Shown here in pieces: positions 11,470-33,596 of a stretch of 34,673 bases of DNA (its first letter is position 1; every line of letters begins with the position of its first letter). The notes under the pieces were generated by a model that worked only from the letters and a program-made list of their open reading frames with translations, was not told the DNA's origin and did no database searches. The position numbers were made by a program, and so were the translations under genes. The stretch covers positions 1 to 34,673 of the forward strand of contig JAUZOD010000043.1 of assembly GCA_030706635.1 (NCBI GenBank), in the 5' to 3' direction. The DNA comes from Bacteroidota bacterium (GTDB lineage: Bacteria > Bacteroidota > Bacteroidia > Chitinophagales > Chitinophagaceae).

Positions 11470-12581
11470 ATATAACCCTCATTGCGGGCGCCCGTCCCAA
11501 TTTTATGAAAATTGCGCCGATCATCAAGGCGATCAAGTTGGAGCAGCAGGCGGCAAAAAATATTTCTTACCGTCTTGTCCATACAGGCCAGCACTACGAT
11601 AAAAAAATGAGCGGAGATTTTTTCGAGCAGCTGGGCATACCATCCCCGGATGTTAACCTGGAATGCGGAAGCGGAACACAGGCGGAGCAGACGGCCGCCA
11701 TTATGGTAAAATTTGAAAGAGAATTGCTTGAACACCGGCCAGACGTAGTGCTGGTTGTTGGCGATGTAACCTCCACTATGGCCTGCACCATCACAGCCAG
11801 GAAATTATGCGTTGATGTGGTTCATGTGGAAGCCGGCATCAGATCGGGCGACATGAGCATGCCGGAAGAAATTAACCGGATCGTAACGGATGCCATTTGT
11901 AATCATTTTTTTACCACCAGCGAATCGGCCAACACCCAATTACTAAAAAATGGTATAACGAGCGACCAGATCCATTTCGTAGGCAATACCATGATTGACA
12001 CCCTGTATCAAAACCTGGAAAAATTGCAGAAGCCCGGGCTCTGGGACCATCACAACCTGCAGGAAAATCAATATTACCTGATCACCCTTCACCGGCCGTC
12101 CAATGTGGACGACCCGCATAACCTCAGCCATCTGCTGGATGTTATTTTAGAGGAAACCGCTGAGCTGCCTGTTGTTTTCCCCCTGCACCCCAGAACAAAA
12201 AAGAACCTGGATGAAAAATATCTGAACAATCCCAAACTGATTGTTGTCGAACCCATGGGATACCTGGAATTCATCTACCTGGTAAAAAAGGCAAAGGCGG
12301 TCATTACCGATTCCGGCGGAATAACCGAAGAGGCCACCGTATTGCATATTCCCTGCGTAACATTAAGGGACTCTACAGAACGCCCTGAGACCGTGACCCT
12401 GGGATCCAATGAGCTGGCCGGCACCAATCCCGCCAACCTCATTCCCTATTTAAAAAAGATTAAAAATAACGAGTGGAAGAAATCCTCGATCCCACCGTTA
12501 TGGGACGGTAAAACATCGGGAAGGATTATTAAAAAATTAATCGCCCTTTATTCTAATGGACAGTTGACAATGGACAATTGA
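11466..12581 (+). CDS. wecB: Non-hydrolysing UDP-GlcNAc 2-epimerase (UDP-ManNAc forming)
   Basis: 371 residues. GT-B fold enzyme interconverting UDP-GlcNAc and UDP-ManNAc by anti-elimination and re-addition of UDP. Visible motifs are IAGARPNFMKIAP, HTGQHYD, VVGDVTSTMA, HVEAGIRSGDMSMPEE, ITLHRPSNVDD, FPLHPRT, and the signature ITDSGGITEEA with LRDSTERPE. It is the last gene of the operon. Normal homology ends near IIKKLIALYSN. The final residues GQLTMDN and the stop are encoded by the heptamer repeat that begins at 12557, so this C-terminus has been remodelled by the repeat. The tail is short and probably harmless. Confidence 0.9.
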   Translation: MNITLIAGARPNFMKIAPIIKAIKLEQQAAKNISYRLVHTGQHYDKKMSGDFFEQLGIPSPDVNLECGSGTQAEQTAAIMVKFERELLEHRPDVVLVVGDVTSTMACTITARKLCVDVVHVEAGIRSGDMSMPEEINRIVTDAICNHFFTTSESANTQLLKNGITSDQIHFVGNTMIDTLYQNLEKLQKPGLWDHHNLQENQYYLITLHRPSNVDDPHNLSHLLDVILEETAELPVVFPLHPRTKKNLDEKYLNNPKLIVVEPMGYLEFIYLVKKAKAVITDSGGITEEATVLHIPCVTLRDSTERPETVTLGSNELAGTNPANLIPYLKKIKNNEWKKSSIPPLWDGKTSGRIIKKLIALYSNGQLTMDN

Positions 12582-12705
12582 CAATGAAAGGCAGTTACAG
12601 CTTTATTAATTGACGATTGACAGTTGACAATAAAAGATAATTACAGTACAGAATTGTCAACTGTCCATTGTCAATTGTCCATTGTCAACTGTCAACTGTC
12701 CATTG
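12557..12705. repeat. Heptamer tandem/inverted repeat, TKGACAR family, locus 1
   Basis: The left arm has four contiguous heptamers TGGACAG/TTGACAA/TGGACAA/TTGACAA (12557-12584) and a further three at 12610-12630. The right arm has seven contiguous heptamers YTGTCMA (12654-12702), the reverse complement of the same word. A 28-bp stretch at 12559-12586 is the exact reverse complement of 12666-12693, and an inner 13-bp pair joins 12619-12631 to 12653-12665, giving a nested hairpin. It fills the space between convergent genes and encodes the C-terminal residues of both. Confidence 0.9.
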
Positions 12706-13338
12706 ATTAAACTCTTTTTCGTACCCGATCGTTGTCGGATCTCCGTGGCCGGGATACACGATGGTCTCATCGGGAAGCGTGTACAATTTCTCTTTAATGC
12801 TGCGCAGCAGCGTTTCCGAATCACCTCCGGGAATATCGGTTCTGCCTATCCCGTTCCGGAATAACACATCCCCCCCGATCACAAATCCCTGTTCACGGTT
12901 ATAGAAAACCACGTGGCCAACGGAATGGCCGGGTGTAAATAAAACTTCCAGTTCGTTTTCCTTTTTCCCTCCCACATGGATGATGTCCCCGTCCGCCAGA
13001 TGTATCAGCTCGCCGGCATAATTCTCAAAGGGCATTCCCCAGGCATCTCCTGATTTGGGCGCATAATCAAAAGTCCACTGCTCTTTTTCCCCGATCTGTA
13101 GTTTTAGTCCGTATTTTTCAGCCACCCATTTGTTGCCGAAAACATGATCCAGATGGCAATGAGTATTTAACAAAAGCTTGGGAATAAGCTGCTCCGACGC
13201 CAGCCAGGCGGCCAGGGTCTCTTTCTCCCCGGGGAAATAACATCCCGGATCAATAATGCAACAGGCATCTTTTCCATTGGAAAGCACGTATGTATTTTCC
13301 TGGACAGGATTGAATATGAATCGTTTTATCGTAAGCAT
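12685..13338 (-). CDS. MBL-fold metallo-hydrolase, glyoxalase II-like
   Basis: 217 residues. The metal site NTHCHLDHVFG supplies His60, His62, Asp64 and His65. Further metal ligands are in TPGHSVGH, FVIGGDVLFRNGIGRTD and VYPGHGDPT. The length, without the C-terminal helical substrate domain of full glyoxalase II (about 250 residues), fits the YcbL-type short hydrolases that cleave S-lactoylglutathione or other thioesters. Cytoplasmic; no signal peptide. The last residues QWTVDS and the stop are encoded by the heptamer repeat at 12654-12702. Transcribed divergently from the large outer-membrane gene at 13428. Confidence 0.85.
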   Translation of the reverse strand: MLTIKRFIFNPVQENTYVLSNGKDACCIIDPGCYFPGEKETLAAWLASEQLIPKLLLNTHCHLDHVFGNKWVAEKYGLKLQIGEKEQWTFDYAPKSGDAWGMPFENYAGELIHLADGDIIHVGGKKENELEVLFTPGHSVGHVVFYNREQGFVIGGDVLFRNGIGRTDIPGGDSETLLRSIKEKLYTLPDETIVYPGHGDPTTIGYEKEFNQWTVDS

Positions 13339-13427
13339 TATGGCCTTTTTCAGATCAAAATCTATTTCACCGGTTTTAGGGATTGTCTTAACTTGAACCG
13401 AGATTCTTCTATAATTCCCGATATAAT

Positions 13428-16400
13428 ATGCAAGATCCGCATAAGTTGAAGTTGAAAGAATTTTTTCTAGTCGCGTCCGCCCTGTTTTTTTTTCTTCAGA
13501 ACGCTTCTTCCCAGGTAAATACAGTTGAATTCGGCAAGAACAGGCTCCAGTTCAAACACATGAAGTGGAAATATTACCAGACCCAGAATTTCAATACCTA
13601 TTTCAATCAGAATGGCGATCCGCTGGCGAAATATGTGGCCCAGGTGGCGGAAAAGGAACTCCCCGGCATAGAAGAGCAGGTGGAATATGGTCTCCAGCGC
13701 AGGGCCAATATCCTGGTTTACAATAGTTTCAACGAAATGGAACAGTCCAACGTCGGATTGGATATGGACTGGCAGACCACGGGTGGCATCACCAAACTGG
13801 TCAACAACAAAATGATCGTTTATTACACTGACGATCATAACAAAATGCGAATTCAGATCCGTGAGGGACTGGCCCGGGTGCTGGTGGAGAATATTCTATT
13901 CGGGGATGACCTGGGCGAAGTAGCCGCCAATCAGGCCCTGCTCGATCTTCCCCAATGGCTGACCGACGGCTATATCCAGTACGTGGCGGAAAACTGGAGT
14001 ACTGATCTGGATGATCAGCTGAAATCGGCCCTGCTTTCGGGGCGGTACAGCAATTTTTACAATTTCGCCTTTGAAAAGCCCGAGCTCGCGGGTCATGCTT
14101 TCTGGCATTATTTCGCCAGGCGTTATAAAAAGGAAAACGTCACTTATTTCTTATACCTCGCCCGTGTTTACCGCAATACCAACAGCGCCTCCACCCGCAT
14201 CACCAAAAAGAAGTTCAAGGATGTGCTGAAAGATTTCATGAACGATGAACAGGAGCTTTATTACACGGATATCCGTGGCCGCAGGAATGCGCCGAAAGGC
14301 TCGGTCTCGGTGGTGGAAGAGACCAGCGATAAAAAGGATTTTTTCCATTTCTCGCCAAATCCTGCTCCGCGCAGCCAGACCTACGCCGTAGTGGAATTCA
14401 ATCATGGGAGATACAGCGTGGTATTGCACGAGAATTTCGTTAATCGCAAGGTGTTGCTCAACAGTGGCGTGAGAACGAACGACAAAACCCTGCAGCCACA
14501 TTATCCTCTCATCGCCTGGGATCCCAAAGGAACCCGGCTCTGCGTCATTTATTATAAGGAGGGGAAAGTGCGTCTTTTTGTGTATGATGTGGTTTCGAAA
14601 TATAAGCGGATCGTGGAGGACCTCGACATGTTTGATCAGGTGCAGGATATGAAATTCATGCTGGACAATAATACGCTTTTGCTGAGCGCCGTAAAACAGG
14701 GACAGTCGGATATATTCGTCCTGCATCTTCAGGATAATCAGCTGGACCAGATCACGAATGACGTGTATGACGATCTGGATGCGACCTTTGTGGCTTTCCC
14801 GGGCAAAACAGGCATCATCTATTCCTCCAACCGCCCCTCCGGAACCGCACCGACAGGAGACACCGTGCTGCCTTCCAATAACCGGTATAATATTTTCCTT
14901 ATTGACAACTGGAACAGAAGTGAATTCAAGCAGATCTCCCAGCTCACCCATCTGAAATATGGGGAGGCCCGGTATCCGATGCAATACAATAATTTTCATT
15001 TCACTTTTATCAGCGATGAAGCGGGTATCGCTAACCGCTATGCCGGGTTTTTCACCACGGCAAAGGCCGGCATAGACACCGTGTACCGCATCGGCGATGA
15101 GATCCTGCATAATCCCGATCCGAAGGACCTGGATTCCACGCTTCAGGCCAATAAACGGTCGGCGCCCGATTCGATTTATACCTTCTCCATAACGAAGGAT
15201 TCTGCATACGTTTTTGCACTGACCAATTATCAGAGCGGCCTGAAAGAAACCAAGATCGCCGGGGAAAACGGATTGGTGAGTGAAGTGCGCCAGGAAGGCG
15301 ATCTTAAATTCCTGTACAAACTGAAAGTGGATGAAAGCGCGCTTAAAAAACGCAATATCAATCCGCGCCAGACGGAATACCGGAAAGAGAGTATCATGGC
15401 CTCCCAGATAGCCAGCGGTCAGGCCGTACAGTATTTGCAGAAGAAACAATCGGACTCCGTCAAGAAACAGAACGACATCTTTGAAAGTGAATTCGATAAA
15501 GATAAAAAGGACACCCTGCTATCTCTTAACCAGCCGGCAGTTCCTGAATCGGAACCCCTGCTGAAAAAGGCCAAGCTGTTTGACTATCACTTGAAATTCT
15601 CAGCGGAAAATTTCTCAGCCGGCTTCAATAACGACGTGCTGATCACCCGCTACCAGCCTTTTACCGGATCATTGCCCATTCAACTGGGCGGGAACGATGC
15701 TTTTGACGCCATGTTCAAGGCTGCCGTGTTCGATCTCTTTGAAGACATCCGCTTTACCGGAGCCCTGCGCCTCCCATTGTTTGGTGGCAGCTCCGCTTCA
15801 GGCATCAGTGCCGGAACAGGCGGGATAGGCTTGTCTTCTTTCAGCCCCGGGAACGGTTCTTTCTTTGACGGCGGGGGCGAATGGTACGGGCGGCTGGATT
15901 ATCTTAAATACCGTACAGATTTCTCCCTGATATATTACAGAAAGACGGATGTTGGCTCATATCCCTATACTGACAGCGCCAACAACGTGATCCATGAGTT
16001 TGACGCCAAGTCCTACTCCAATCTTTTTCAGGCTGTGATAAGGTATCCCTTTGACAAAGTGAGAAGCCTGCGTTTAAGTCTGGGTGAAAGAACAGACAAG
16101 GTCAAGATAAGGGCAGACGGTACCAGCGCCTACACCGGGGATCCGACCTTTGATCTGATTGCCCTTAAAACGGGTGATCTGGGAAAGCAGTCATTCATGT
16201 TAACACACCTGGAATATGTTTATGATAATACGGTCATCAAAACGACCAATATCATGAACGGCTTGCGGTATAAATTCTATGTTGATTTCAATTACCAGAT
16301 CAACCAACCTCAAACGGGAGAAGGCAGGAAGATGTTCAATTACGGATTTGATGCCCGGAATTACTATCCGATCTTCCGCAATTTCATCTGGGCGCTGCGG

Positions 16401-16940
16401 GCAGCAGGAGATTTCTCCTCGGGGAATGAGAAAATCGTATATTATTTAGGCGGCATGGATGGAGAGATGTTCCCGAAAGCGAATCAGCTTCCCAATCCGG
16501 ATTACAGTCAGAACTATGCTTATCAATCCCTGGCCCTCAACCTGCGCGGATTCAGACAGAACGTTGCCAACGGGAACAATGCGGTGACCATAAACAGTGA
16601 ATTCCGTTTACCGGTATTCACCACCTTGTTCAACAAGCCCATCAATAACGCCTTTCTGAGGAATTTCGAAGTGATCCAGTTCTTTGATCTGGGCACAGCC
16701 TGGGCAGGATCGCTTAAGAATATTGAACGTCCTCAAATGCATTACCAAACAGACGACACATCCATCCCGATTGACGTCACCTTAAAAGCGGGTGGTATCG
16801 GTCCCTTTGCCGGCAGTTACGGTTTTGGAGTAAGAAGCATGCTGCTCGGCTACTTCCTGAGGCTCGATGCGGGTTGGGAAATGAAGGGTTTTTTCCGCGG
16901 CAAGCCGATGCTGCAGTTTGCGATGGGCGTGGACTTTTAA
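13428..16940 (+). CDS. Large outer-membrane protein: peptidase-MA-like domain, beta-propeller, C-terminal barrel
   Basis: 1170 residues. Residues 1-29 are a signal peptide (KLKEFFLVASALFFF, then ASSQ). Residues 30 to about 270 resemble gluzincin peptidase_MA proteins, with LPQWLTDGYIQYVAENW in the place of the usual LPxWxxEGxA, but the HExxH site is replaced by REGLARVL, so catalysis is unlikely. Residues 300 to about 540 hold TolB/PD40 propeller blades (YPLIAWDPKGTRLCV, DLDATFVAFPGKTGIIYSSN, ISQLTHLKYGEARYP). A charged linker follows, then from about residue 710 beta-strands typical of an outer-membrane barrel, ending in LQFAMGVDF with terminal Phe. It is conserved in Bacteroidota by my recollection; function unknown. 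Confidence 0.75.
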   Translation: MQDPHKLKLKEFFLVASALFFFLQNASSQVNTVEFGKNRLQFKHMKWKYYQTQNFNTYFNQNGDPLAKYVAQVAEKELPGIEEQVEYGLQRRANILVYNSFNEMEQSNVGLDMDWQTTGGITKLVNNKMIVYYTDDHNKMRIQIREGLARVLVENILFGDDLGEVAANQALLDLPQWLTDGYIQYVAENWSTDLDDQLKSALLSGRYSNFYNFAFEKPELAGHAFWHYFARRYKKENVTYFLYLARVYRNTNSASTRITKKKFKDVLKDFMNDEQELYYTDIRGRRNAPKGSVSVVEETSDKKDFFHFSPNPAPRSQTYAVVEFNHGRYSVVLHENFVNRKVLLNSGVRTNDKTLQPHYPLIAWDPKGTRLCVIYYKEGKVRLFVYDVVSKYKRIVEDLDMFDQVQDMKFMLDNNTLLLSAVKQGQSDIFVLHLQDNQLDQITNDVYDDLDATFVAFPGKTGIIYSSNRPSGTAPTGDTVLPSNNRYNIFLIDNWNRSEFKQISQLTHLKYGEARYPMQYNNFHFTFISDEAGIANRYAGFFTTAKAGIDTVYRIGDEILHNPDPKDLDSTLQANKRSAPDSIYTFSITKDSAYVFALTNYQSGLKETKIAGENGLVSEVRQEGDLKFLYKLKVDESALKKRNINPRQTEYRKESIMASQIASGQAVQYLQKKQSDSVKKQNDIFESEFDKDKKDTLLSLNQPAVPESEPLLKKAKLFDYHLKFSAENFSAGFNNDVLITRYQPFTGSLPIQLGGNDAFDAMFKAAVFDLFEDIRFTGALRLPLFGGSSASGISAGTGGIGLSSFSPGNGSFFDGGGEWYGRLDYLKYRTDFSLIYYRKTDVGSYPYTDSANNVIHEFDAKSYSNLFQAVIRYPFDKVRSLRLSLGERTDKVKIRADGTSAYTGDPTFDLIALKTGDLGKQSFMLTHLEYVYDNTVIKTTNIMNGLRYKFYVDFNYQINQPQTGEGRKMFNYGFDARNYYPIFRNFIWALRAAGDFSSGNEKIVYYLGGMDGEMFPKANQLPNPDYSQNYAYQSLALNLRGFRQNVANGNNAVTINSEFRLPVFTTLFNKPINNAFLRNFEVIQFFDLGTAWAGSLKNIERPQMHYQTDDTSIPIDVTLKAGGIGPFAGSYGFGVRSMLLGYFLRLDAGWEMKGFFRGKPMLQFAMGVDF

Positions 16941-16944
16941 TGGG

Positions 16945-17030
16945 GTGGATGGTATATGGTTTATGGTGGATGGACTTTATTGGTGTGTCCGCGCCTGATA
17001 TCCATCCACCATAAACCATATACCATCCAC
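16945..17030. repeat. Perfect 30-bp inverted repeat with 7-nt periodicity
   Basis: Positions 16945-16974 are the exact reverse complement of 17001-17030, with a 26-nt loop. The left arm reads as heptamers GTGGATG, GTATATG, GTTTATG, GTGGATG. It begins four nucleotides after the stop codon of the 13428-16940 gene and ends 19 nt before the stop of the convergent yciH gene. It may end transcription from both sides, though no strong T-run follows. Confidence 0.9.
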
Positions 17031-17049
17031 AATAAAATCCCGCAATCTA

Positions 17050-17385
17050 CTATACTACCTTATACCCCTCCTTCCCCAGCCACAATTTCAATTTCTGCAT
17101 CTGATCTCCCTGTACAAGAATTTCTCCGTCTTTTACTGAGCCACCGCTGCCGCAGTGGGCTTTGATCTTTTTACCCAGAATTTCCAGGTCTTCCGTTGTG
17201 CCGACAAATCCAATGATGGCGGTGACTGTTTTTCCTCCGCGGTGACGCTTGTCAAGCAGCATGCGTAAACGCTGTTTGCCGGGAGGTAAAGTCTCCGGTC
17301 CGGATGAAGAATCTTTATCGAACCTGAAATCCGGATTCGTGCTGAATACGAAGCCGTTTTTGTCGGGTATATTTTTTCTGGACAT
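17050..17385 (-). CDS. yciH: SUI1/YciH-type translation initiation factor
   Basis: 111 residues. The C-terminal two thirds form the eIF1/SUI1 fold: LRMLLDKRHRGGKTVTAIIG, TTEDLEILGKKIKAHCGSGG, VKDGEILVQGDQMQKLKLWL and a final EGYKVV. A short polar N-terminal tail precedes it. Bacterial YciH is related to eukaryotic eIF1 and is thought to affect start-site fidelity or translation under stress; it is not essential in E. coli. The upstream leader between nadC and this gene is occupied by a heptamer repeat (17396-17511) whose left arm begins 11 nt before the ATG. Confidence 0.9.
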   Translation of the reverse strand: MSRKNIPDKNGFVFSTNPDFRFDKDSSSGPETLPPGKQRLRMLLDKRHRGGKTVTAIIGFVGTTEDLEILGKKIKAHCGSGGSVKDGEILVQGDQMQKLKLWLGKEGYKVV

Positions 17386-17395
17386 GATTTAGCAA

Positions 17396-17511
17396 TGGAC
17401 AATTGACAGTTGACAATGAAGGGGCAAATTATAAAAATTAAAAATGAATTGAAAATTATCAACCATTCACTCTCCATTGTCAATTGTCAATTGTCTATTG
17501 TCAACTGTCAA
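17396..17511. repeat. Heptamer tandem/inverted repeat, TKGACAR family, locus 2
   Basis: The left arm is TGGACAA, TTGACAG, TTGACAA (17396-17416). The right arm is six heptamers from 17470 to 17511 (CTCTCCA, TTGTCAA twice, TTGTCTA, TTGTCAA, CTGTCAA). Fifteen bases at 17403-17417 are the exact reverse complement of 17497-17511. The word is the same as at 12557-12705, about 4.8 kb away. The right arm encodes the end of nadC. Confidence 0.9.
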
Positions 17512-18366
17512 AGCTTTCAAACTCAGATCCAGACTCTTGGCCTGATGAATCAGCGCGCCGATGCTGAGGAAGTCAACACCGGTGGCAGCATAGGCGCGGA
17601 TATTTTCCAGGTTGATTCCGCCGCTGGCTTCTGTTTCAAGCTTTTGCTGAATGATGTCGAGGGCTTGTTTCAACTGTTCGGGATTAAAATTATCCAGCAA
17701 GATCCGGTCCGCTTTTCCCGTTTTCAGTACCTCCCGTACATCGTTAAGGGTCCGGACTTCCACTTCAATTTTTAATCCTGGTTTTACTTCCTGCACGTAG
17801 CGATAAGCCCTTAAAAGGGCTTTTTCTATTCCTCCGCAATAGTCAATATGATTATCCTTGAGCATGATCATATCATATAAACCAAAACGGTGGTTGTGGC
17901 CGCCGCCAATACGCACCGCTTCTTTTTCCAGCAAACGGAAATTCGGCGTTGTCTTACGCGTGTCCAGTATTTTTGATGCATATCCTTTGATCTGCTCCAC
18001 ATACTGATGCGTCAGGCTGGCAATGCCGCTCATGCGCTGCATGCAATTCAATACAAGGCGTTCGCAGATCAGAATGGTATGCACGGTGCCTTCTACTTCG
18101 AATGCCGTTTCTCCCGATCGCATGGCTTCTCCATCTTTCTTGCGCGAATGAAAAGCGACTGATGGTTCCCGGTGGCGGAATATTTTTTCCGCCACTTGCA
18201 CACCGGCCAGAATACCATCCTGTTTGATCTTCAGCACCGCTTTGCCGCGGACATCTGCGGAAATGGAACTCAGGCTGGAATGATCTCCGTCCCCGGTATC
18301 TTCCGCCAATGCGGCTTTGATCAAATCAACTAATCGCTCATCAAAGTGCGCAACGGGTTTGTTCAA
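17467..18366 (-). CDS. nadC: Quinolinate phosphoribosyltransferase (NAD biosynthesis)
   Basis: 299 residues. Converts quinolinate and PRPP to nicotinate mononucleotide, CO2 and PPi. The N-terminal open-face domain begins LIKAALAEDTGDGDHSS. The barrel carries LNCMQRMSGIAS, LDTRKTTPNFRLLEK, VRIGGGHNHRFGLYDMI and MLKDNHI, all signature phosphate and quinolinate contacts, then ILLDNFNPEQL and GVDFLSIGALIHQA. The usual protein ends near LDLSLK. Here the last residues, TVDNRQLTIDNGE, and the stop are read from the heptamer repeat, a 13-residue extension. A TAnnTTTG box lies just upstream of the ATG. Confidence 0.93.
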   Translation of the reverse strand: MNKPVAHFDERLVDLIKAALAEDTGDGDHSSLSSISADVRGKAVLKIKQDGILAGVQVAEKIFRHREPSVAFHSRKKDGEAMRSGETAFEVEGTVHTILICERLVLNCMQRMSGIASLTHQYVEQIKGYASKILDTRKTTPNFRLLEKEAVRIGGGHNHRFGLYDMIMLKDNHIDYCGGIEKALLRAYRYVQEVKPGLKIEVEVRTLNDVREVLKTGKADRILLDNFNPEQLKQALDIIQQKLETEASGGINLENIRAYAATGVDFLSIGALIHQAKSLDLSLKALTVDNRQLTIDNGE

Positions 18367-18385
18367 TGTTTGTGGTTTAGAAGGA

Positions 18386-18393
18386 CAAATTTA
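18386..18393 (-). promoter_or_regulatory. Candidate -7 box (TAAATTTG) of nadC
   Basis: The minus strand reads TAAATTTG, an exact TAnnTTTG match ending 19 nt before the nadC ATG at 18366. Initiation would fall near 18379, leaving a short leader. No good -33 TTTG was found at the expected spacing. Confidence 0.45.
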
Positions 18394-18646
18394 ATCCAGT
18401 TCGGGCTTTTGTGATAACGGAAAAATTAGGCCCGTGGGAACATAAATGAGCTTTGGAATAAACAAAGAAAAGCAAGCGGTCAATAAATACGGAAAGATAA
18501 GCCGCTGATACGTGCAGACCTGGATTGATGATGAACCTTCATGCTGCTGAAAGACGAAGAAGAATCGGTCTCTGAACATTCATATCGGAATACAACAGCG
18601 AATTCGGTGAGCAAGGCCTTATATAAATTCCTGAAAGAAGCGGATC
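18394..18646. other. Intergenic, no supported gene
   Basis: Between nadC and the DUF4783 gene. A plus-strand frame from an ATG at 18541 runs to 18705, and a minus-strand frame spans 18391-18579, but neither shows family resemblance or a start signal. No hairpin with a T-run was found for the DUF4783 gene. Confidence 0.4.
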
Positions 18647-19051
18647 TCATTCAACCGCCTGAAAGCGGATCTCCTGAAGCAATTGTTTCTGTCCTTTCTG
18701 TTTGAAGAATAACATGGTCCGGTAATTACCGCTATAGGTCTGCAGCAGACCGGTGCAAAACAGGAACTCCGCAGTGTTACCCTGCTGGAAGATTTTGAAA
18801 TTACGGACGCCATGAACATTAAAGAAATCGCTGATCACCATTTCCGCCTGCGACTTGCTATAGGTATCGCTTTTATCCGGCAGGCTGATATCTACCCGGA
18901 TGTCCAGATAAGGAGATAATTGACTAATGTTTCCGGAACGGAAGGCAGTCGCTACCGCCTCAAGGTTGTATGAACCGGGTTCATGTGTTGTACGGAAAGA
19001 TGAAAGGATGAGCAAAATGCTAACCAGAGCCCATCCCATAAAGGATTTCAT
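18647..19051 (-). CDS. DUF4783 family exported protein
   Basis: 134 residues. N-terminal hydrophobic segment MKSFMGWALVSILLILSS (signal peptide or anchor), then a compact alpha+beta domain: AVATAFRSGNISQLSPYLD, RVDISLPDK, YSKSQAEMVISDFFNVHG and the closing LLQEIRFQAVE. This order is that of DUF4783, an NTF2-like family restricted to Bacteroidota. Function unknown. In many Bacteroidota it sits next to nadC, as here, which helps the call but does not explain it (association recalled, not checked). Confidence 0.75.
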   Translation of the reverse strand: MKSFMGWALVSILLILSSFRTTHEPGSYNLEAVATAFRSGNISQLSPYLDIRVDISLPDKSDTYSKSQAEMVISDFFNVHGVRNFKIFQQGNTAEFLFCTGLLQTYSGNYRTMLFFKQKGQKQLLQEIRFQAVE

Positions 19052-19139
19052 GGGAATAAAGTTTAACAGGCTTTATAAAGCGAAAAATATGCCAAAGTAA
19101 ATCCACCGCGGAAAATACGATTAAACAGCGCAATAGCAC

Positions 19140-19147
19140 TAACTTTG
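19140..19147 (+). promoter_or_regulatory. Candidate -7 box (TAACTTTG) of gpmI
   Basis: TAACTTTG fits TAnnTTTG exactly and lies 31 nt before the gpmI ATG at 19179. The -33 position lacks a clear TTTG. Confidence 0.45.
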
Positions 19148-19178
19148 AGGCCTTTATAAAAAATTCCAAGCGTGTAAA

Positions 19179-20708: not shown

Positions 20709-20785
20709 AAAAGAGCCCGGAATCTTTGTGGCAATGCAGCTTTAACAGCAAAAATTTGTCTAATTTACAGGGCAACGAGGTTTTT

Positions 20786-21361: not shown

Positions 21362-21394
21362 TGGTTATGAAAAGCCGTACCAAAACGAGCCATA

Positions 21395-22756: not shown

Positions 22757-22761
22757 ATTTG
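22754..22761 (+). promoter_or_regulatory. Candidate -7 box (TAGATTTG) before the lipoprotein gene
   Basis: TAGATTTG matches TAnnTTTG and shares its first three bases with the stop codon of the preceding gene. It lies 23 nt before the ATG at 22785. The -33 region is poor, so read-through from the sigma operon remains possible. Confidence 0.3.
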
Positions 22762-22784
22762 TTTCCATGTATTAATTTTATCGG

Positions 22785-23360: not shown

Positions 23361-23364
23361 GCGC

Positions 23365-25203: not shown

Positions 25204-25228
25204 CGGATGAGGGCAGTAAAAATAAAAA

Positions 25229-25259
25229 GGGGCCAGAATGGAAATTCAGCCCCGTTTTT
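25229..25259 (+). terminator. Intrinsic terminator of uvrC
   Basis: GGGGC (25229-25233) pairs with GCCCC (25249-25253), with an inner GAAT/ATTC pair, followed by GTTTTT. It lies 25 nt after the uvrC stop. Confidence 0.75.
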
Positions 25260-25420
25260 AAAATCCAATATCCTATGAAAAACCGTTGTAAAAATAGCAA
25301 AACAATTCTATTAAACAAGAACCCCTTCGGGTATTTTGAAAATAATTATCAACACTATAAATAACATTATTTCAGCAACTTATAGTATAAATACGATGCT
25401 TCCCAAAAAGGGAAAGCCAA
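25260..25420. other. AT-rich spacer between uvrC and gldN terminators
   Basis: No supported gene. A 29-codon frame from an ATG at 25275 is Asn/Lys-rich and unconvincing. Two small stems are visible: ACCC/GGGT at 25321-25332 and TCCC/GGGA at 25401-25413. Confidence 0.5.
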
Positions 25421-25457
25421 AAAACAAAAAGGCTGCCAGGTTTAATTCCAGACAGCC
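25421..25457 (-). terminator. Terminator of the gldKLMN operon
   Basis: On the minus strand a stem of about 10 bp (25448-25457 with 25431-25440, two mismatches) and a 7-nt loop is followed by TTTTTGTTTT (25421-25430). It lies 24 nt after the gldN stop. The plus strand also has a T-run after the stem, so it may work in both directions. Confidence 0.8.
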
Positions 25458-25480
25458 TTTTAAAAGATATTCTTTATATT

Positions 25481-26518
25481 CTAATATGACCAGAGATCCT
25501 GTTCGTAATTGAAGATCTTGTTTTTAATATTATCCCCTTCCAGCAAATCCAGGATGGGATCTTTGATATAGGCATTGATGAACTGATCGCCCGGGTTGTC
25601 TATCGTGGATTTTACAATCCTGCTGGCGAACATCCGGCTTTCAAAAAGCTCTTCCCAGCTCATCCTGGCCCCGTAGTTCTTGCCATTATAAGCTTCGTAC
25701 TTAGCGAGATACTGCCTTAGATCGGGGTAATAAACCCAGAAGATCGGGACTACTGCACGGAAAGAACCATCGGGATTCAGAATCGTTTTTTCCGGAGCAA
25801 TACCCAGGATACGGGCATACATTCTGGATGATTCCTTATCGAAAACCCATTCTTCCTTGAGCTCATAGCGCTCTACCTGATCCGGATTAAATTCCTGTAC
25901 AATGGTGGTGTCTTTGGTGATTCCTTTGGAACCATCCGGATCCACGGTCATATCCGGGATTTGGATGACCGAAGGTTTACCTACCATACTTTCAGCAATC
26001 TGCCGGAAAGTCATTGGCGTGGTAAAACGATCATCAATAGTTGCATCAAAAGCGGTTACCTCACCAGTTTTGATAAGATTCAGCAGAATATTAATGAAAC
26101 GTTGGTTACCATTGTCTTCTGTAGCCTTATACACAAAAGGGAGGTTCATTTTCTCATGAACATCTATTTCCCGCCAAACGCGCTGACGATAAACGGCATC
26201 GTCTTCCCGGATATGCTCATAGGCCAAAGGCGTACGATCTTTTACCAGGTTGAGCTCGATGGCCGCATCATTCCGGAGTGATTTACGGAGGGTATCGAAT
26301 TTGATATCCGCTACAAATTCAGCCACAGGTTTGGTCACTGTATCCTTAGGGGGAGCCACTACCGCACTGGCGTTGCTGTTCCTGCTGGTATTGGTTTTCT
26401 TTTTTACAGTTGACCTCTTATGCTTCGGCCTTTTGACAGGCGCCTGGGCATCCACGGTTCCCACCGCCAGAGCAAACATTGCCGCCAGGAGGGATAATCT
26501 GATCAAACGCTTCTTCAT
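25481..26518 (-). CDS. gldN: Type IX secretion component GldN (PorN)
   Basis: 345 residues. Signal peptide of about 25 residues (LSLLAAMFALAVGTVDAQ), then a basic linker (KRPKHKRSTVKKKTN). The GldN domain includes IREDDAVYRQRVWREIDVHE, NLPFVYKATEDNGNQRF, LKEEWVFDKESSRMYARILG and VPIFWVYYPDLRQYLAKY. GldN is periplasmic and forms the ring with the lipoprotein GldK on the inner face of the outer membrane. It is the last gene of gldKLMN, followed by a strong terminator, and is separated from gldM by 72 nt. Confidence 0.95.
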   Translation of the reverse strand: MKKRLIRLSLLAAMFALAVGTVDAQAPVKRPKHKRSTVKKKTNTSRNSNASAVVAPPKDTVTKPVAEFVADIKFDTLRKSLRNDAAIELNLVKDRTPLAYEHIREDDAVYRQRVWREIDVHEKMNLPFVYKATEDNGNQRFINILLNLIKTGEVTAFDATIDDRFTTPMTFRQIAESMVGKPSVIQIPDMTVDPDGSKGITKDTTIVQEFNPDQVERYELKEEWVFDKESSRMYARILGIAPEKTILNPDGSFRAVVPIFWVYYPDLRQYLAKYEAYNGKNYGARMSWEELFESRMFASRIVKSTIDNPGDQFINAYIKDPILDLLEGDNIKNKIFNYEQDLWSY

Positions 26519-26590
26519 GTACTAAAATTTATCGTGAGAAAAGGACAAAACAGATCCGCCACTGTTACTGTGACGGGATCCGGGAATATT

Positions 26591-28186
26591 TTATTTAAGA
26601 CTGAATACCATGGGCGTAATTTCACGTTCCTTGCCGTCGGGTCCTTTAACATGGATCTGATCAAAGTAAATGTAAGTGCCCGGGGTAGCGCGACTAACGA
26701 TAGTAGCCGCATTTCCTGACCATCTTACACCGTCGTTTGTAGCTTCCGTGTATTGGGGAATTCCACCACCGATAGCGCCGAGTTTGTAGCTCACTACATG
26801 AAACGGGGCATCAAAGTCAGAATCTTCCAGATGGGCCTGCAGACCTCCGATGGCTTTGAATTCAGCCGAGGAAATTGCACCGCCCTTCTTTGCTCCGACG
26901 AAACCAGCCGGCAAAGGCAGGTTCTTGACCCGGATGGGGAATTTAAAATCTTTACCATTTGCATTTACAATGATTTCGGCCAAACCTGGTGTAGTTGGTT
27001 TGATCACCCAGTCATCACCGCCGGCATTGGTCATGGAAGCGCCCGGGCTGGTAAAGCTGACATGCACTTTTTCACGGCCTACGCTACCACCCGAGATGGT
27101 CAACGGATTTTCCACGCCGATATATACCACATTCATTTTCTTCAGGAAAACGGATGCGCCGGAAGGCAATCCAACAGTATATTTTACGGGCTTGTCTACA
27201 GTTTCAGGTGTTCCGTCAGGCTTGGTATATTGAATATGCACCATTACGGTGTGCTCTCCTGCTCCATCGGCCCTGGTCTTGAAATCGGCTGTGCCGTCAG
27301 CCCCAAGGGCCTGTGGCTGACCGTTAATGGTGATGACGGGTTTGGCAGCTGCACTAAAAGCGCCCACGCCGGCCGTAATATCCAGCTCGTCGCCGGGCAT
27401 CACATAATTGGAACTCGCCTGGGCAAGTACCTGAAATTTATCATATACCACTTTTACTTCGCCGATTTTCTTGTGCAGATAATCAATCATCTGGGCTTCA
27501 GAATTCTTCACATCATTCTGGAACTTGCTGAGGATGGTCAAAGCCGCAATGGTCGGCGTCATGTGAAAGTAATTGTTCACCCAGTCCTTTGTTGAATCCC
27601 CGGTGCTGGGGTTACCAGATTGTGATTTGGGAACGGAAAGATCCAAAGGCAGCTGTTTTGCGAAATCAGCCCTGGCCTTAATGATATCCGCCTGAATTAA
27701 TGGCTGACCGGCAAATTCTTCCGGGTTCAGCACATTCAGCAGCTGTTGCTTGTATTTTTTCAGGTCATCATATAAAACCTTCCCCTGTCCCTGATTTCCC
27801 ATCAAACGGATGGGCGCATCCAGGTCCGCTTCGCGATACACTTCTTCACCATTCTTATTTACTTCCAGGCCTGATTCCTGCTTCAGTTTCTTTTTCAGGG
27901 TTTCGAGCTCATCGAAGAGATCTCCCGAGAGTTTCTTGGCGACTATTGCTTTGGGCTCCCAGATAGCTGCCTGCGCATGTGTCTGCGCATCGTTCAATTT
28001 ATTTTCAAAAGACTTATAGGTGAGGTCATTTTTTTCTGTGATCACCTGGTTGGACTTGCCAATACTGGTGTTTACGGTTTTGAAGGCATTCAGAATTTCA
28101 GCAGATACATTCAGCGCCAGCAATGCTGTCAGCACCAAATACATCATGTTGATCATCTTCTGCCTGGGCTCTTTAGGTAAGGACAT
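26591..28186 (-). CDS. gldM: Type IX secretion / gliding motor protein GldM (PorM)
   Basis: 531 residues. The cytoplasmic N-terminus MSLPKEPRQKMINMMYLVLT runs into one membrane helix (about 11-30, LVLTALLALNVSAEILNAF). A helical periplasmic domain follows (KLNDAQTHAQAAIWEP). Three Ig-like beta-domains follow (YVMPGDELDITAGVGAF, GASVFLKKMNVVYIGVENPL, LPAGFVGAKKGGAISSAEF). GldM dimers pair with GldL in the inner membrane to turn proton flow into rotation or torque and reach the GldKN ring in the periplasm. Length and domain order match the family. The start is fixed by the conserved N-terminal motif. Confidence 0.96.
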   Translation of the reverse strand: MSLPKEPRQKMINMMYLVLTALLALNVSAEILNAFKTVNTSIGKSNQVITEKNDLTYKSFENKLNDAQTHAQAAIWEPKAIVAKKLSGDLFDELETLKKKLKQESGLEVNKNGEEVYREADLDAPIRLMGNQGQGKVLYDDLKKYKQQLLNVLNPEEFAGQPLIQADIIKARADFAKQLPLDLSVPKSQSGNPSTGDSTKDWVNNYFHMTPTIAALTILSKFQNDVKNSEAQMIDYLHKKIGEVKVVYDKFQVLAQASSNYVMPGDELDITAGVGAFSAAAKPVITINGQPQALGADGTADFKTRADGAGEHTVMVHIQYTKPDGTPETVDKPVKYTVGLPSGASVFLKKMNVVYIGVENPLTISGGSVGREKVHVSFTSPGASMTNAGGDDWVIKPTTPGLAEIIVNANGKDFKFPIRVKNLPLPAGFVGAKKGGAISSAEFKAIGGLQAHLEDSDFDAPFHVVSYKLGAIGGGIPQYTEATNDGVRWSGNAATIVSRATPGTYIYFDQIHVKGPDGKEREITPMVFSLK

Positions 28187-28249
28187 GAGCGTGAGAATTT
28201 AATGTGTTAACAATGGTTTTTCAGGGTTGTTAGTTCCCGGTTAATTGGA

Positions 28250-29032
28250 TTAATGGTTAGCTGTCTGTCTTCCCTGCATTGCGCTCAACATATTACCGTA
28301 TACATGGTTGAGGTTACCGAGGTTCTTGGCCAGTAAGGCAACCTGTTCCTGCGTTTTCTTGGCGTCTGCAACACTGCCATTCATGGCTTCTGATGCCTGG
28401 GCCAGATTGCTGTAGAAGCTGTTCATGGCTTTCAGGTGGTTGTTGCTATCCTGCAATTCCAGTTCATACAATGTGTTCAGTGAACCCAGATTTTTGGTAA
28501 GAACCTGAACCTGGCTATGAAATTGTTTAGTGCTTTCAGCAGCATTATTCAAAGTGGAAATGGTATTGGTGGCGCCCTGGTAAGCATGTTTCATGCCATC
28601 CAGCGCAGCCGTAGCTTCTTTTGTTTTAGCTGTATAGTCTGTTGTCGCGGCCAGTGCGCCGGATACATCCTTGATATTATCAACGGTAGTGCCAAATTTC
28701 TTGAAACCTTCACTCAAACGGCTCAGGCTTGCCGGAGTGATATCTGCTTCCTGCATCATCTTATCCATTTGTTGCAGGGAAGGATTTCCGGAACCGGCGC
28801 CAGCCAGTTTAGGAAGCGCTTCTGCAAGAGCATGCATTTCACCACCGGGAGGCGGTAAGAAGGCGTACACGATAAAGATCAGGGCTTCTGTAAGCAAACC
28901 TGCTGTGAGGAAGAAGTCAGCCAGCCGTTGGTGGGTGATTTTCTGCCATGCACCAAAGATTACAACTGCTGCACCAACGCAGACAATTATGTTTACAAGT
29001 TTTTCGGTCGATTTTGAAACTCCGGCTGACAT
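28250..29032 (-). CDS. gldL: Type IX secretion / gliding motor protein GldL (PorL)
   Basis: 260 residues. Two membrane helices: about 12-29 (LVNIIVCVGAAVVIFGAW) and about 39-60 (DFFLTAGLLTEALIFIVYAF). A long cytoplasmic coiled-coil-rich domain follows (TTDYTAKTKEATAALDGMKH, ELQDSNNHLKAMNSFYSNLA, AKKTQEQVALLAKNLGNLN). Glu49 in the second helix is at the position of the proton-pathway glutamate described for Flavobacterium GldL. With GldM it forms the proton-driven motor for secretion and gliding. The coding order follows gldK, after a 124-nt gap containing a CCGGA/TCCGG hairpin (29074-29090) of unknown role. Confidence 0.95.
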   Translation of the reverse strand: MSAGVSKSTEKLVNIIVCVGAAVVIFGAWQKITHQRLADFFLTAGLLTEALIFIVYAFLPPPGGEMHALAEALPKLAGAGSGNPSLQQMDKMMQEADITPASLSRLSEGFKKFGTTVDNIKDVSGALAATTDYTAKTKEATAALDGMKHAYQGATNTISTLNNAAESTKQFHSQVQVLTKNLGSLNTLYELELQDSNNHLKAMNSFYSNLAQASEAMNGSVADAKKTQEQVALLAKNLGNLNHVYGNMLSAMQGRQTANH

Positions 29033-29156
29033 AGTTTTAAATTTTTAGTTTTTAATGGGTTTTCTGAGGGGATCCGGAATGATTATCCGGGTTGATTGGT
29101 TAATGAATCAAACGTGGTTTATTTTAAAAAATTTTGTCCCGTAAGCGAAATTATGG

Positions 29157-30440
29157 TTACTTCTTGGCCAGGGTTGCCGGCAGATCAATCACACAACGGA
29201 AACCGATATAAGATTTTGCCGTATCCTGGTACTCATACGTGCGGGTGCTGGTTTGCAGGAAATAGCCTACATCTTTCCAGCTTCCGCCGCGGATAACCTT
29301 ACGCTTCATACGCGGAGGATCTGAATCCTTTGCGTTGTAACGGATATCCGGGTTCATATCATGCTGGAAGTTATAAGCGCCTTCGTAGTACACTGATGAA
29401 GTCCATTCGGCAACATTGCCGGCCATACAATACAGCCCGAAATCGTTAGGCCAGTAGGCATCGGCGCGTGCTGTGTAAAAAGCACCATCTTCAGGGTAGT
29501 TGCCGCGACCTGGTTTAAAGTTAGCCAGGAGACATCCTTTTTTATTTCTCAGGTAATAGTTACCCCAGGGAAACATTGATTGTGAGCGTCCGCCACGGGC
29601 AGCGTATTCCCACTCAGCTTCCGTTGGTAAACGGTAAGGAGATTCGTTTGCCCTTTTAGTGCGATCCAGGTAAGAATTCAGATACTGGGTCCTCCATTCG
29701 CAGAATGCAGTTGCCTGATTCCAGTTCACCCCAACCACCGGATAGTTACCGAAGGCAGGATGGGAGAAATATCTTTTAGTCATCGGCTCATTGTAGGAAT
29801 AAGAGAAGTCACGGATCCAAACCAGGGTATCCGGGTAAACCTTCGTGTCTTTCTTGATGATGAACTGGGAACGATCCTTCCCTTCATTAATTTTCTGGGC
29901 AGCTTCCTTCAGGTCAAAGGTTTCAGAATGATATAACAGTTTGGCAGGGTTTATTTCTTTTTTGCCATAAATGCGATTTTCCGGCGTCAGGATCAACTGG
30001 TCAATTTTTTCAATCGTTGCCTTATCACCCCATTTGATGGTATTGGCCTTTTTCCAGTCTACCTGGAACTTGCCATCCACTTCCTTGCCGTATTGCATCA
30101 GGGTGGCTGCTATGGAATCGCGAACCCAATATACAAACTGGCGGTATTCGTTGTTGGTGATTTCGGTTGCATCCATCCAGAATCCCTGGATTGAAACCTG
30201 CTTATTGCGTGCCGTATAGGCGTAATTGACATCTTCATCGCTGGGGCCCATATGAAAGGTTCCGGGTGGGATATAAACCATTCCGGGGGGTTTGCTGAGA
30301 TTGTACCTGCTGGCGGGGGCAACACCGTGTAACTGACCATCATCCGGTAATCCCTTGTGGGATTTTCCAATTTTGCCACATCCGGTTAAGGCAAGAGCCA
30401 CAGATAGTGACATCAGAACGGATAGGTTTTTCATTTTCAT
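29157..30440 (-). CDS. gldK: Type IX secretion lipoprotein GldK (PorK), FGE-like
   Basis: The frame is open from 30551, but the lipoprotein signal begins at the ATG at 30440 (or 30434) and the promoter lies at 30506-30536. The 427-residue form is therefore chosen. Signal LSVLMSLSVALALTGC, lipidated at Cys21. The body is a formylglycine-generating-enzyme-like domain: YIPPGTFHMGPSDED, FWMDATEITNNEYRQF, YRLPTEAEWEYAARGG, CMAGNVAEWTSSVYYE and VIRGGSWKDV, ending SYIGFRCVIDLP. In the T9SS it forms the outer-membrane-attached ring with GldN and is not an enzyme of sulfatase maturation. It is the first gene of the operon. Confidence 0.95.
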   Translation of the reverse strand: MKMKNLSVLMSLSVALALTGCGKIGKSHKGLPDDGQLHGVAPASRYNLSKPPGMVYIPPGTFHMGPSDEDVNYAYTARNKQVSIQGFWMDATEITNNEYRQFVYWVRDSIAATLMQYGKEVDGKFQVDWKKANTIKWGDKATIEKIDQLILTPENRIYGKKEINPAKLLYHSETFDLKEAAQKINEGKDRSQFIIKKDTKVYPDTLVWIRDFSYSYNEPMTKRYFSHPAFGNYPVVGVNWNQATAFCEWRTQYLNSYLDRTKRANESPYRLPTEAEWEYAARGGRSQSMFPWGNYYLRNKKGCLLANFKPGRGNYPEDGAFYTARADAYWPNDFGLYCMAGNVAEWTSSVYYEGAYNFQHDMNPDIRYNAKDSDPPRMKRKVIRGGSWKDVGYFLQTSTRTYEYQDTAKSYIGFRCVIDLPATLAKK

Positions 30441-30505
30441 AATATTAAAGGGTATTGGACAAAAATAATCTATTGAGAATATTTCTTTTGAGAATATCTT
30501 CATCG

Positions 30506-30536
30506 CAAGTATAGAATTAATTTTTAACAAGTCAAA
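30506..30536 (-). promoter_or_regulatory. Promoter of the gldKLMN operon
   Basis: On the minus strand, TTTG (30533-30536), a 19-nt spacer, then TATACTTG (30506-30513), one base from TAnnTTTG. Spacing and both boxes fit the Bacteroidota primary sigma consensus. Predicted start is near 30499, giving a leader of about 59 nt before the gldK ATG. It is the best promoter in the window. Confidence 0.7.
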
Positions 30537-30609
30537 GTATTGCCTGTACATTATTAACGGTGAAAGGGGCCGGCTTATTGTAGTTTCTGGCTGTTTCCGA
30601 AAGGTTTTT

Positions 30610-32628
30610 TTAAGTAGTTCCCATTAGCCTCAGGAGCTCATCCGGCTCTGTCACAGGTTGTTGGCAGGCATAATCCCTGCAAAGAAAAAACTGCGACAAT
30701 CCGGCAACGGGTTTGTTTCTCAAAAGTGGAAAATCCGGCTGGTCGGGCGAAGTTAGCTGAAATATCCTGTTGGGTACGAACTGGGCCAAAAATCCGAGCT
30801 GTTTTTCCTGCTGATTCTCCCCACTGAGCACCACCTCATACATTCCATACGCAAAGGCATTTAGCAAAGTTGCCCATGTGCCGAAAGATCCCGGATATTT
30901 GAAAATCACGGCAGTTAACCCGTCCATCATCCGGGCACTCCGCTGTTTCCAGTCCCGGGAATCAAGCGCAATGCCCAGATATAGCAAATTGTTTGCCATC
31001 ACTGCGTTTCCCGATGGAATGGCTCCGTCGAACAGTTCTTTTTTTCGCACAATCACATCATCCTGTTGTTCATGGGTATAAAAGAAGTAACCGGTTTCCT
31101 CCTCGCTGAAATACCGTACAACCCAATGGGTCAGGCCGGCGGCTTTCTCCAGATAATCCGACGAGCCGGTAATCTCCTGTAATTGGATATACGCATCAAT
31201 CAGATAAGCATAGTCATCCAGAAAAGCAGGAATGGCGGCTCTCCCCTCTTTATAGCTATAACTATGGTAAAAATGAAAAATCCCCTCACCCCCGAATTTA
31301 TCTTCCAGAAAGGCCATTCCATCCATGGCCAGCCGACGATATTCGGGCATTCCCAAAGCGGCAAATGCCTTGCAACAGGCGGTGATCATCAGCGCATTCC
31401 AGCCCAGTAATACTTTATCATCAAGCTGCGGAGGAATCCGGTTTTTCCTGGCTTCCGTCAATAATTTCCGGCATGCCTGGTCGATGCTTTCAGGTAGGGG
31501 GTTTAAGGGATCTCTTATCCTCAGAATGTTCCTGCCTTCCCAGTTTCCTTTCTCCGTAATATCATAATAGGCCGAAAAAGAGGGCGCGTGCTCACCCAGC
31601 AGGGTATCGGTTTCTGCCTTGTCCCATACATAATATTTCCCTTCAACTCCTTCGCTGTCAGCATCCAGGGCGGAATAAAACCCTCCGCCAGGCGCCAGAA
31701 ATTCCCGGATTATGAAGCCCATCGTGTGGATTATGGTTTTTCGATAAATGGGCTTTTTAGTGATTTGATAAGCCTCACTGAGCGTCGTAATCAGTAAGGC
31801 ATTGTCGTACAGCATCTTCTCAAAATGGGGGGCAAGCCATTCCCCATCAGTAGCATACCTGGCGAAACCGCCACCCAACTGATCGTAAATGCCACCATAG
31901 ATCATTTTATCCAGGGACAGGCTGGCCTGCTCCAGGGCCTGTTCATTATGGGTATAATAATAATGCTGCAATAAAAAACGGATAGAAAAGGTTTGCGGAA
32001 ATTTGGGGGCCTGCCCGAACCCACCGGATATTCGATCCGCTGTTTTCATAAGATTCTCAAAAATGATTTCACCCTGCTCTTTGGTAAAATGAGCCTGAAA
32101 CGCAGATTTGGGATCCGGGAGGCTGGCGATGCTGGCATGGGCGATGTGGCTGGTCAGGTTTTCCGCCTGCGCCTCTATCTCTTCCCGCTGGTCGCGAAAA
32201 ACCGAGGACACGTTTTTCAAAATGGCCGTCCACGAAGGCCGGCTGAACGCATCTACAGGAGGGAAATAAGTGCCTCCGTAAAAAGGTTTTCCCTCCGGAG
32301 TCAGAAATACATTCAGGGGCCAGCCGCCATTGCCCGCAATGGCCTGTACCGCATCCATATATATATGATCAAGGTCAGGTCTCTCTTCCCGGTCTATTTT
32401 CACATTCACAAAATCCCGGTTCATGATCTCCGCGGTAACCGGATCCTCAAAACTTTCCCTTTCCATTACATGGCACCAGTGACAGGCAGAATAACCAATA
32501 CTCACGAGCATGGGTTTGTCCTCAGACCTCGCCTTTTCAAATGCCTCATCTCCCCAGGGAAACCAGTCTACCGGGTTGTGTGCGTGCTGCAGGAGATACG
32601 GGGAGGTTTCGTTGGCGAGACGGTTCAT
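30610..32628 (-). CDS. Thioredoxin-domain protein, YyaL/DUF255 (spermatogenesis-associated protein 20-like) family
   Basis: 672 residues. The N-terminal thioredoxin-like domain has the family signature [20 protein letters not shown] and the redox-type CHWC at residues 49-52 ([20 protein letters not shown]), then [20 protein letters not shown]. The rest is an (alpha/alpha)6-type barrel: [65 protein letters not shown] and [11 protein letters not shown]. Members occur in all domains of life; the biochemical role is not settled. Cytoplasmic. The intergenic DNA upstream is almost wholly an octamer repeat (32635-32762), whose left arm begins 7 nt before the ATG. Confidence 0.92.
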
Positions 32629-32634
32629 GGAATG

Positions 32635-32762
32635 CTAATGTGCTGATGTGAAAATGTGCAGATGTGTAAATGAAATGCAGAGCAAAATTAACAAGTCAAC
32701 TCCGTAATGCTGGTGCACACAAAGAATTTTCACATTTCCACATTAGCACATTTCCACATTCG
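32635..32762. repeat. Octamer tandem/inverted repeat (NNNATGTG)
   Basis: The left arm has four octamers CTAATGTG, CTGATGTG, AAAATGTG, CAGATGTG (32635-32666). The right arm has four octamers CACATTTC, CACATTAG, CACATTTC, CACATTCG (32731-32762). 32637-32658 pairs with 32731-32752 with 20 of 22 matches and a 72-nt loop. It fills the gap between hemD's stop and the next gene's start on the minus strand. Confidence 0.85.
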
Positions 32763-33567: not shown

Positions 33568-33596
33568 GTATTTATTAAAAAAGCTCAATGGCAAAA

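Follow-up and report, generated by a model that had tools for sequence, protein, structure and literature searches.

The 34,673-nucleotide (nt) contig JAUZOD010000043.1 (assembly GCA_030706635.1), from a soil-living Bacteroidota bacterium of the family Chitinophagaceae, carries four inverted repeats whose arms are tandem copies of a degenerate 7- or 8-nt word. They lie at 12555-12705, 16944-17030, 17393-17511, and 32633-32760 of the contig, which we refer to as the window in its full length. They belong to a class of multicopy intergenic palindromes in the source genome, and we see about an even chance that this class is kept by slippage of the word arrays, hairpin-templated copying of one arm from the other, and dispersal to other gene borders. 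The source genome (G000; 4.58 Mb, 162 contigs, 99.9% complete) was sampled beyond the window in 40 stretches, comprising 743,810 bases. Gene names used here (wecB, nadC, hemD, yyaL, metallo-hydrolase, and others) were read from the sequences without a protein-family search, and gene contexts come from a simple longest-open-reading-frame script.

In the sampled bases, a count of arrays with periods of 4 to 15 returned 43 of period 7, 18 of period 8, and 29 of period 14, along with three of period 11, one each of periods 6 and 15, and none of any other. One first-order Markov resample of the sample contained no array at any period, and chance is excluded as the origin of this spectrum. After the threshold was lowered and the window included, 69 arrays of period 7 (1 in the control) and 25 of period 8 (3 in the control) were found, while no other period from 5 to 12 exceeded six. 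Similar spectra were obtained for the close relative G006 (657 kb; 57, 12, and 31 arrays of periods 7, 8, and 14, at most two of any other) and for 80 HemD loci (512 kb; 16, 5, and 9 arrays of the same periods, three of period 15, and one of period 11). The original prediction, made from the window, had proposed looking for such periods outside the four loci, and the excess at 7, 8, and 14 is strong. This is a heptanucleotide repeat class, with 7-nt units over-represented and mainly intergenic, and an 8-nt class stands alongside it. The opposed arms proposed from the window were also recovered genome-wide: a scan for inverted repeats that was blind to period found 50 in the sample and window, and the arms of 45 had a period of 7, 8, or 14. 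The other five were removed by the period filter before counting, one of them (L051:10894) being an AATGTG element just under the filter. Four of the 45 lie in the window and eight in 360 kb of contigs C1, C2, and C75, with none in the 80 kb of C75; some sample stretches were picked on TKGACAR-rich contigs (including two on C81), which biases element densities upward. Polarity is uniform, the left arm of all 45 reading in the forward sense of the word.

A small set of words accounts for most arrays. In the sample and window, 89 of 94 fall into five families (TKGACAR, GTTGACG, GTNNATG, AATGTGNN, and AATTTGAN), as assigned by loose regular expressions, which indicates that words are copied between loci and not born at each. 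The clustering of words thus came out as foreseen, and several words do exist, but they are not all unrelated as first supposed: TKGACAR, GTTGACG, and most GTNNATG units (the exceptions being GTATATG and GTTTATG) fit the degenerate heptamer RTKGAYR, and words of this type occur mixed within single arrays. The GTTGACG and GTNNATG elements also have a common palindromic core in their loops, with the consensus GGACTTCAGGTGCGAATTCGCACCTGAAGTCC as read from the loops, which makes the consensus element a palindrome some 88 nt long. A covariance model built on 20 such elements gave at least 150 matches in the source genome (150 of 1792 candidates scored) and 82 in a 778-kb sample of it, counting both strands each time. 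The same model gave 66 matches in 1,057 kb of stretches from relatives, 60 of these in G006 and six in G005 and G017, and none in the stretches of G022, G007, G009, and G025. Under stricter filters it matched 39 of the 147 genomes drawn for a family search, the source genome included; nine matching loci that were inspected had different words and unrelated loops. At up to three mismatches, the core occurs at ten places in G000, 14 in G006, nine in G019, and one each in G010 and G015, with none in the other 34 of the 39 genomes. Because the core is confined mainly to three genomes, part of the class is a single family that has dispersed within a small clade. The view that the loci do not descend from one element therefore fails for the GTTGACG and GTNNATG loci, and derivation from a single ancestral sequence applies to that part only. 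Loops of the 8-nt family have no common sequence (6.38, with 6.29 when shuffled; ten loops), and those of TKGACAR elements, which contain pieces of array, are weakly conserved (7.46 versus 6.39).

The two arms of an element change together. Among 38 GTTGACG and GTNNATG elements, arm identity was 95.4% within an element versus 77.4% between elements, 11 pairs were perfect, and the own partner arm ranked first in 26. The mean pairing score was 24.2 with the own partner versus 11.5 with a swapped one. As the elements had been picked as inverted repeats, the comparison was restricted to swapped pairs passing the same detection threshold, and none of 10,000 resamples of these reached the own-partner mean. 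In 20 aligned elements, two-sided changes were present at 12 of 21 pairs (49 double-change, seven one-sided, and 23 unpaired cells), and four of five measures of covariation lay above all 500 shuffles. Selection on RNA would favor G-U pairs, and DNA copying would not. Mismatches between arms, read in transcript orientation in tandem contexts only, comprised ten G-U, 17 A-C, and 21 other, so RNA pairing is not favored, which fits hairpin-templated copying in DNA. Template switching has been reported to homogenize the arms of inverted repeats (PMC8794818, consulted in part).

The gene order of the window is largely kept within the genus, and different words stand at the same border in different species. 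At nadC|SUI1, the source genome has TKGACAR, G006 has GTNNATG, and G015 combines a TAACGCY arm with a GTTGACG arm; G005 has a short GCGTAA stretch, and G014, G020, G022, and others have no element. At TolB|SUI1, G000 and G006 carry the same family, with loops running in opposite directions (read by eye); GTTGACG stands there in G015, and in G005 each stop has a TAACGC-type arm close by, the two lying several hundred bases apart. The hemD gene has the same neighbor at 74 of 80 HemD loci, and 13 of the 74 hemD|yyaL spacers contain 7- or 8-nt arrays, with approximately 12 words among them (read by eye); a period-9 array occurs in one spacer and a period-11 array in one of the 13. For 61 borders common to the samples of G000 and G006, an element was present in both at four, in G000 only at one, in G006 only at six, and in neither at 50 (Fisher p 0.0018), by a lax test under which three of the six G006-only borders hold A/T-rich arrays. 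Two of the four borders occupied in both genomes carry different words. Thus the borders are retained or used anew, and the words at them are often exchanged, which points to ongoing copying, not one inherited element, and in this respect the copying process with several words that had been predicted is supported by the relatives. Two of these, G005 and G017, are array-rich with other words (GCGTAAR, TAACGCY, AATTGTY, AGTATAAG, AGTATGGG, and AGTGTGRR). No array was found in 80 kb of G022, 60 kb of G007, or 40 kb of G009, and 60 kb of G025 had one array locus; matches to TKGACARTKGACA in whole genomes numbered 14 in G022 and nine in G007.

A scheme in four steps would accommodate these observations. 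An array of a word would grow and shrink by slippage in whole units, leaving the period spectrum described above. The arms may then fold as a hairpin during replication, so that template switching copies one arm from the other, with unit variants in matching order in the two and changes shared between them; we infer this step from the identity between arms and from double changes without an excess of G-U. Arrays or whole palindromes are also copied to other borders, with few words serving many loci and one dispersed family having a conserved core. Finally, elements would be tolerated after stop codons, where coding sequence and promoter escape damage, and, often overlapping the gene end, they may replace an ordinary terminator. 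Words at a border turn over faster than the border itself, as is seen at a few borders. Several points weigh against this scheme. Template switching has not been observed as an event, and the detailed orthologous comparison is of one pair (TolB|SUI1 in G000 and G006). Picking elements as inverted repeats inflates arm identity, which the threshold-passing swaps control in part, and the fifth measure of covariation, on further pair types, was not above shuffles, 98 of the 500 being as high. The 8-nt class is retained at two of the four borders that G000 and G006 have in common as occupied sites. Borders with two words (nadC|SUI1 in G015, and L066:8680 and 8836) are not explained by arm-to-arm copying, dispersal between loci has no known agent, and slippage alone does not explain why periods of 7 and 8 are found over 5, 6, 9, or 10.

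The position of the elements raises a somewhat unlikely alternative that is compatible with a copying mechanism, namely, that they are selected transcription terminators or stabilizers of RNA 3' ends and that the words merely build long stems. The 45 elements lie between convergent genes in 15 cases, tandem genes in 25, and divergent genes in four, with one at a stretch end; background gene pairs comprise 111 convergent, 392 tandem, and 113 divergent. The predicted border placement holds and can be made more exact. Of the 25 elements between tandem genes, 19 are nearer the stop, with median distances of 3 nt from the stop codon and 22 nt from the following start. As derived from the listed gaps, an overlap of 1 nt or more with the element occurs at 21 of 55 facing gene ends. 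The very stable stems placed just after stop codons speak for such a role, and convergent ends with an array or element have fewer canonical terminators than those without (2/30 versus 11/30 for gaps of 60-300 nt; 2/32 versus 14/74 for gaps of 20-500 nt). Sequences read as intrinsic terminators occur at hemD|yyaL in G003, G005, G015, and G017 (L208, L210, L212, and L213), and none was seen in G000 or G006, which carry an 8-nt palindrome there. A terminator-like role is possible. However, the G+C-rich stem followed by a T run that marks an intrinsic terminator is not the rule: only 10 of 56 hairpin exits have a T-rich tail, and 13 have an A-rich one. Tandem ends show no clear difference in canonical terminators (1/25 versus 9/90, and 2/29 versus 11/192), many borders have no element, and the arm mismatches show no preference for G-U.

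We consider it unlikely that the elements are conventional non-autonomous mobile elements moved by a transposase, with the heptamer arms as their inverted ends, in the manner of miniature inverted-repeat transposable elements (MITEs), repetitive extragenic palindromic (REP) sequences, or bacterial interspersed mosaic elements (BIMEs). REP and BIME elements are short palindromic intergenic repeats in many copies, associated with RAYT transposases. The loci with the shared core, repeated in G000, G006, and G019 and almost absent elsewhere among the 39 genomes, would suit such movement, as would the borders occupied in one close relative and empty in the other. The arms here are made of tandem words, unlike those of REP and BIME elements, and a search for Y1_Tnp (RAYT), the only transposase family searched, found no match in G000, G005, G006, G017, or G019, while 26 of the 39 genomes have one. 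Target-site duplications were not found either: the flanks of the 45 elements share no more than permuted flanks (3.09 versus 3.21), although fuzzy element ends could hide a short duplication. Loops within the 8-nt family show no conservation, and words differ at orthologous borders. The original prediction had likewise held a REP/RAYT or MITE origin to be unsupported. Two other candidate agents were rejected. Repeat addition by a telomerase-like or retron enzyme finds no RVT_1 match in G000, G005, G006, or G017, with a match in 14 of the 39 genomes. The loss of SbcD as a cause was judged by TIGR00619, which we take to be the SbcD subunit of the hairpin-cleaving nuclease; it is over the cut-off in only six of the 39 genomes (within the genus only in G007) and has no match in G000, G005, G006, G017, G019, or many other relatives, so its rarity does not separate repeat-rich from repeat-poor genomes.

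A more speculative proposal, which we regard as improbable, is that some machinery writes or spreads RTKGAYR, always in one polarity, among distant bacteria and their phages and that the elements are stop ladders in all frames. Their polarity puts stop codons, shifted by one or two bases per unit, in the arm that comes first in a transcript, and a period of 7 or 8 would close every frame, unlike 6 or 9. In the source genome the 5' arm has 2.62 stop codons and the 3' arm 0.29, with 1.05 in random 29-mers. Over all sampled sets, the 5' arm was the richer in 127 of 155 elements, with the reverse in 14 and ties in 14. If true, a stop ladder would accord with the overlap of facing gene ends noted above. 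By word cluster, the asymmetry is seen in only 8 of 12 (p 0.39), so the idea stays a lead; six elements of G005 taken alone showed no asymmetry, and the AATTGTC arms of that genome run opposite to TKGACAR in G000, which counts against a fixed polarity. The period-7 triple of RTKGAYR matched 111 of 395 Bacteroidota genomes, G000 being the highest among the matches listed (186+147), and a period-6 version had no match in G000 and matches in 74 of the 395, mostly once or twice. Many genomes were also matched by a reversed control word, so words of this shape other than RTKGAYR are plentiful. In the IMG/VR database, the TKGACAR 20-mer TTGACAATGGACANTTGACA was found in 39 stretches (33 contigs, some alike) versus two for the reversed pattern. 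These stretches (330 kb, 36-66% G+C) had 142 period-7 and two period-8 arrays, a richness that is partly by construction as they were chosen by three word units. Paired RTKGAYR elements in them have the polarity of G000 in 32 of 32 cases, and three further elements have other words. The IMG/VR occurrence may reflect horizontal spread, shared machinery, or a common word bias. One IMG/VR contig (L350; 62% G+C), which carries open reading frames read as phage tail genes, holds one element twice (8284-8393 and 8991-9100), both copies having GTTGACG-type arms and a common 48-nt loop, part of which occurs twice in L352. The L350 element has one partial phage match, without a host; L359 and L365 had no match among phages, nor L359 among plasmids.

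Plain vertical descent, in which the border elements are old and their words diverge in a concerted way, would explain why close relatives share borders more often than expected and why G000 and G006 keep the word class at TolB|SUI1 and hemD|yyaL, yet it is quite doubtful given that no small number of substitutions links words such as TKGACAR and TAACGCY at the same border, that two Longitalea genomes (L234 and L239) differ at hemD|yyaL, and that the same words recur at many loci within one genome.

Arrays of heptamers in convergent pairs are already known from Xanthomonas, and the GGGAATC pairs of that genus (PMC4692102) and the TAACTGA repeats (PMC4679880) are the nearest published accounts, both consulted in part, as were the others discussed here. 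The GGGAATC repeats are degenerate heptamers, most commonly in arrays of four units, with 70 and 75 convergent pairs of opposite-strand arrays; the pairs are mostly intergenic, closer to the upstream gene, and rare between divergent genes. The majority lie between the same genes in two species, with extensive variation in length and sequence (PMC4692102). The elements described here likewise pair two close arrays in opposite orientation. The Xanthomonas repeats have one G-rich word, discussed as a possible G-quadruplex, whereas no consensus word of G000, in the word lists read, contains a run of three G. The consulted part of that account describes no genome with several words, no 8-nt words, and neither a core nor covariation of arms (PMC4692102). 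TAACTGA heptamers form intergenic arrays in Beggiatoaceae, cyanobacteria, and some Bacteroidetes, with a patchy phylogeny; long mixed arrays are found in some Bacteroidetes and in Microcystis, and indels between two similar strains are mostly of 7 nt. These repeats, unlike those of the window, are mostly direct and upstream of start codons, with one indirect repeat in the main genome (PMC4679880). The BrickBuilt MITE of Porphyromonas gingivalis is also from the Bacteroidota, intergenic, and built of tandem units within an inverted-repeat element, but the units are 23-nt minisatellites and its arms, small inverted-repeat ends, are not made of them (PMC4596501). No account of multiword 7- or 8-nt palindromes in Chitinophagaceae, or of word turnover at orthologous borders or covariation of arms in such repeats, was found in a literature search outside which most subscription papers lay; searches for the word strings returned only papers unrelated by title. 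In the short tandemly repeated repetitive (STRR) sequences and long simple sequence repeats of cyanobacteria, heptanucleotide units are over-represented, and a link to polymerase contact size has been proposed. The STRR accounts consulted include neither opposed arms nor a turnover of words at orthologous borders. Heptamer arrays are on record from several phyla, with no accepted cause or role in the accounts consulted. One genome with several words, turnover at borders between species, and co-evolving arms offers a tractable case for asking why units of 7 and 8 nt are found, by what route words reach other loci, and whether copying on a hairpin template is what preserves long bacterial palindromes.

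Within the window, all four loci share the design that had been proposed, with a tandem degenerate word and two opposed arms. In the TKGACAR (RTKGACA) locus at 12555-12705, the best opposed arms agree over 28 nt at 100% (31 nt at 94%). The left arm (12555-12586), found by Tandem Repeats Finder and as the inverted repeat, enters the 3' end of the gene read as wecB (11466-12581), whose stop lies inside the arm. A second left array in the loop (12608-12631) pairs at 92% with 12653-12676 in the fold, and the right arm, the reverse complement (12652-12705), enters the 3' end of the metallo-hydrolase-like gene (12685-13338, minus strand). The GTNNATG locus has a left arm of four units (16944-16974), a 26-nt loop that aligns with other elements as a degenerate copy of the core (16975-17000), and a right arm (17001-17030), the arms being 100% complementary over 30 nt. 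Its match to the covariance model, R1, covers 16944-17033 (E 4.2e-22), the element itself being among the 20 from which R1 was built. The second TKGACAR locus has its left arm at 17393-17421 and its right arm at 17472-17511, with best arms of 29 nt at 90%; the C-terminal residues of the NadC-like protein (17467-18366, minus strand) are encoded by the right arm. At the fourth locus, with the 8-nt word NNNATGTG and best arms of 23 nt at 87%, the left arm (32633-32672) adjoins the start of the gene read as yyaL (30610-32628, minus strand) and the right arm (32726-32760) comes directly after the stop of the gene read as hemD (32764-33594, minus strand). Single-strand folding z-scores were -10.6, -10.6, -7.4, and -3.2 in the order of the loci, and Rfam gave no match in the window at gathering score. 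Arms of unequal copy number, described for all four loci, are clear only at 17.4 kb (3.6 versus 5.1 units); the arms at 12.6 kb have approximately 4.6 and 7.7 units unless the inner left array is counted, those at 16.95 kb are equal, and those at 32.7 kb have 5.0 and 4.4.

These repeats also matter for annotation and assembly. Several arrays sit at a contig end or within about 15 bases of it (L050 6518-6651, L058 1-44, and L062 14-42), so such repeats seem to break assemblies and the longest may be missing; annotators should be aware that certain contigs begin or end at such arrays. They should also expect arrays to append tails to predicted proteins, as arms overlap the coding ends of three genes in the window and encode the C-terminal ends of the WecB-like (12555-12581), metallo-hydrolase-like (12685-12705), and NadC-like (17467-17511) proteins. 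For example, the NadC-like proteins of relatives stop no more than a few residues from a conserved SLKA, where the window protein continues through the arm. A second NadC-like gene of the source genome (C153:348-1181) has 63% identity to that of the window.

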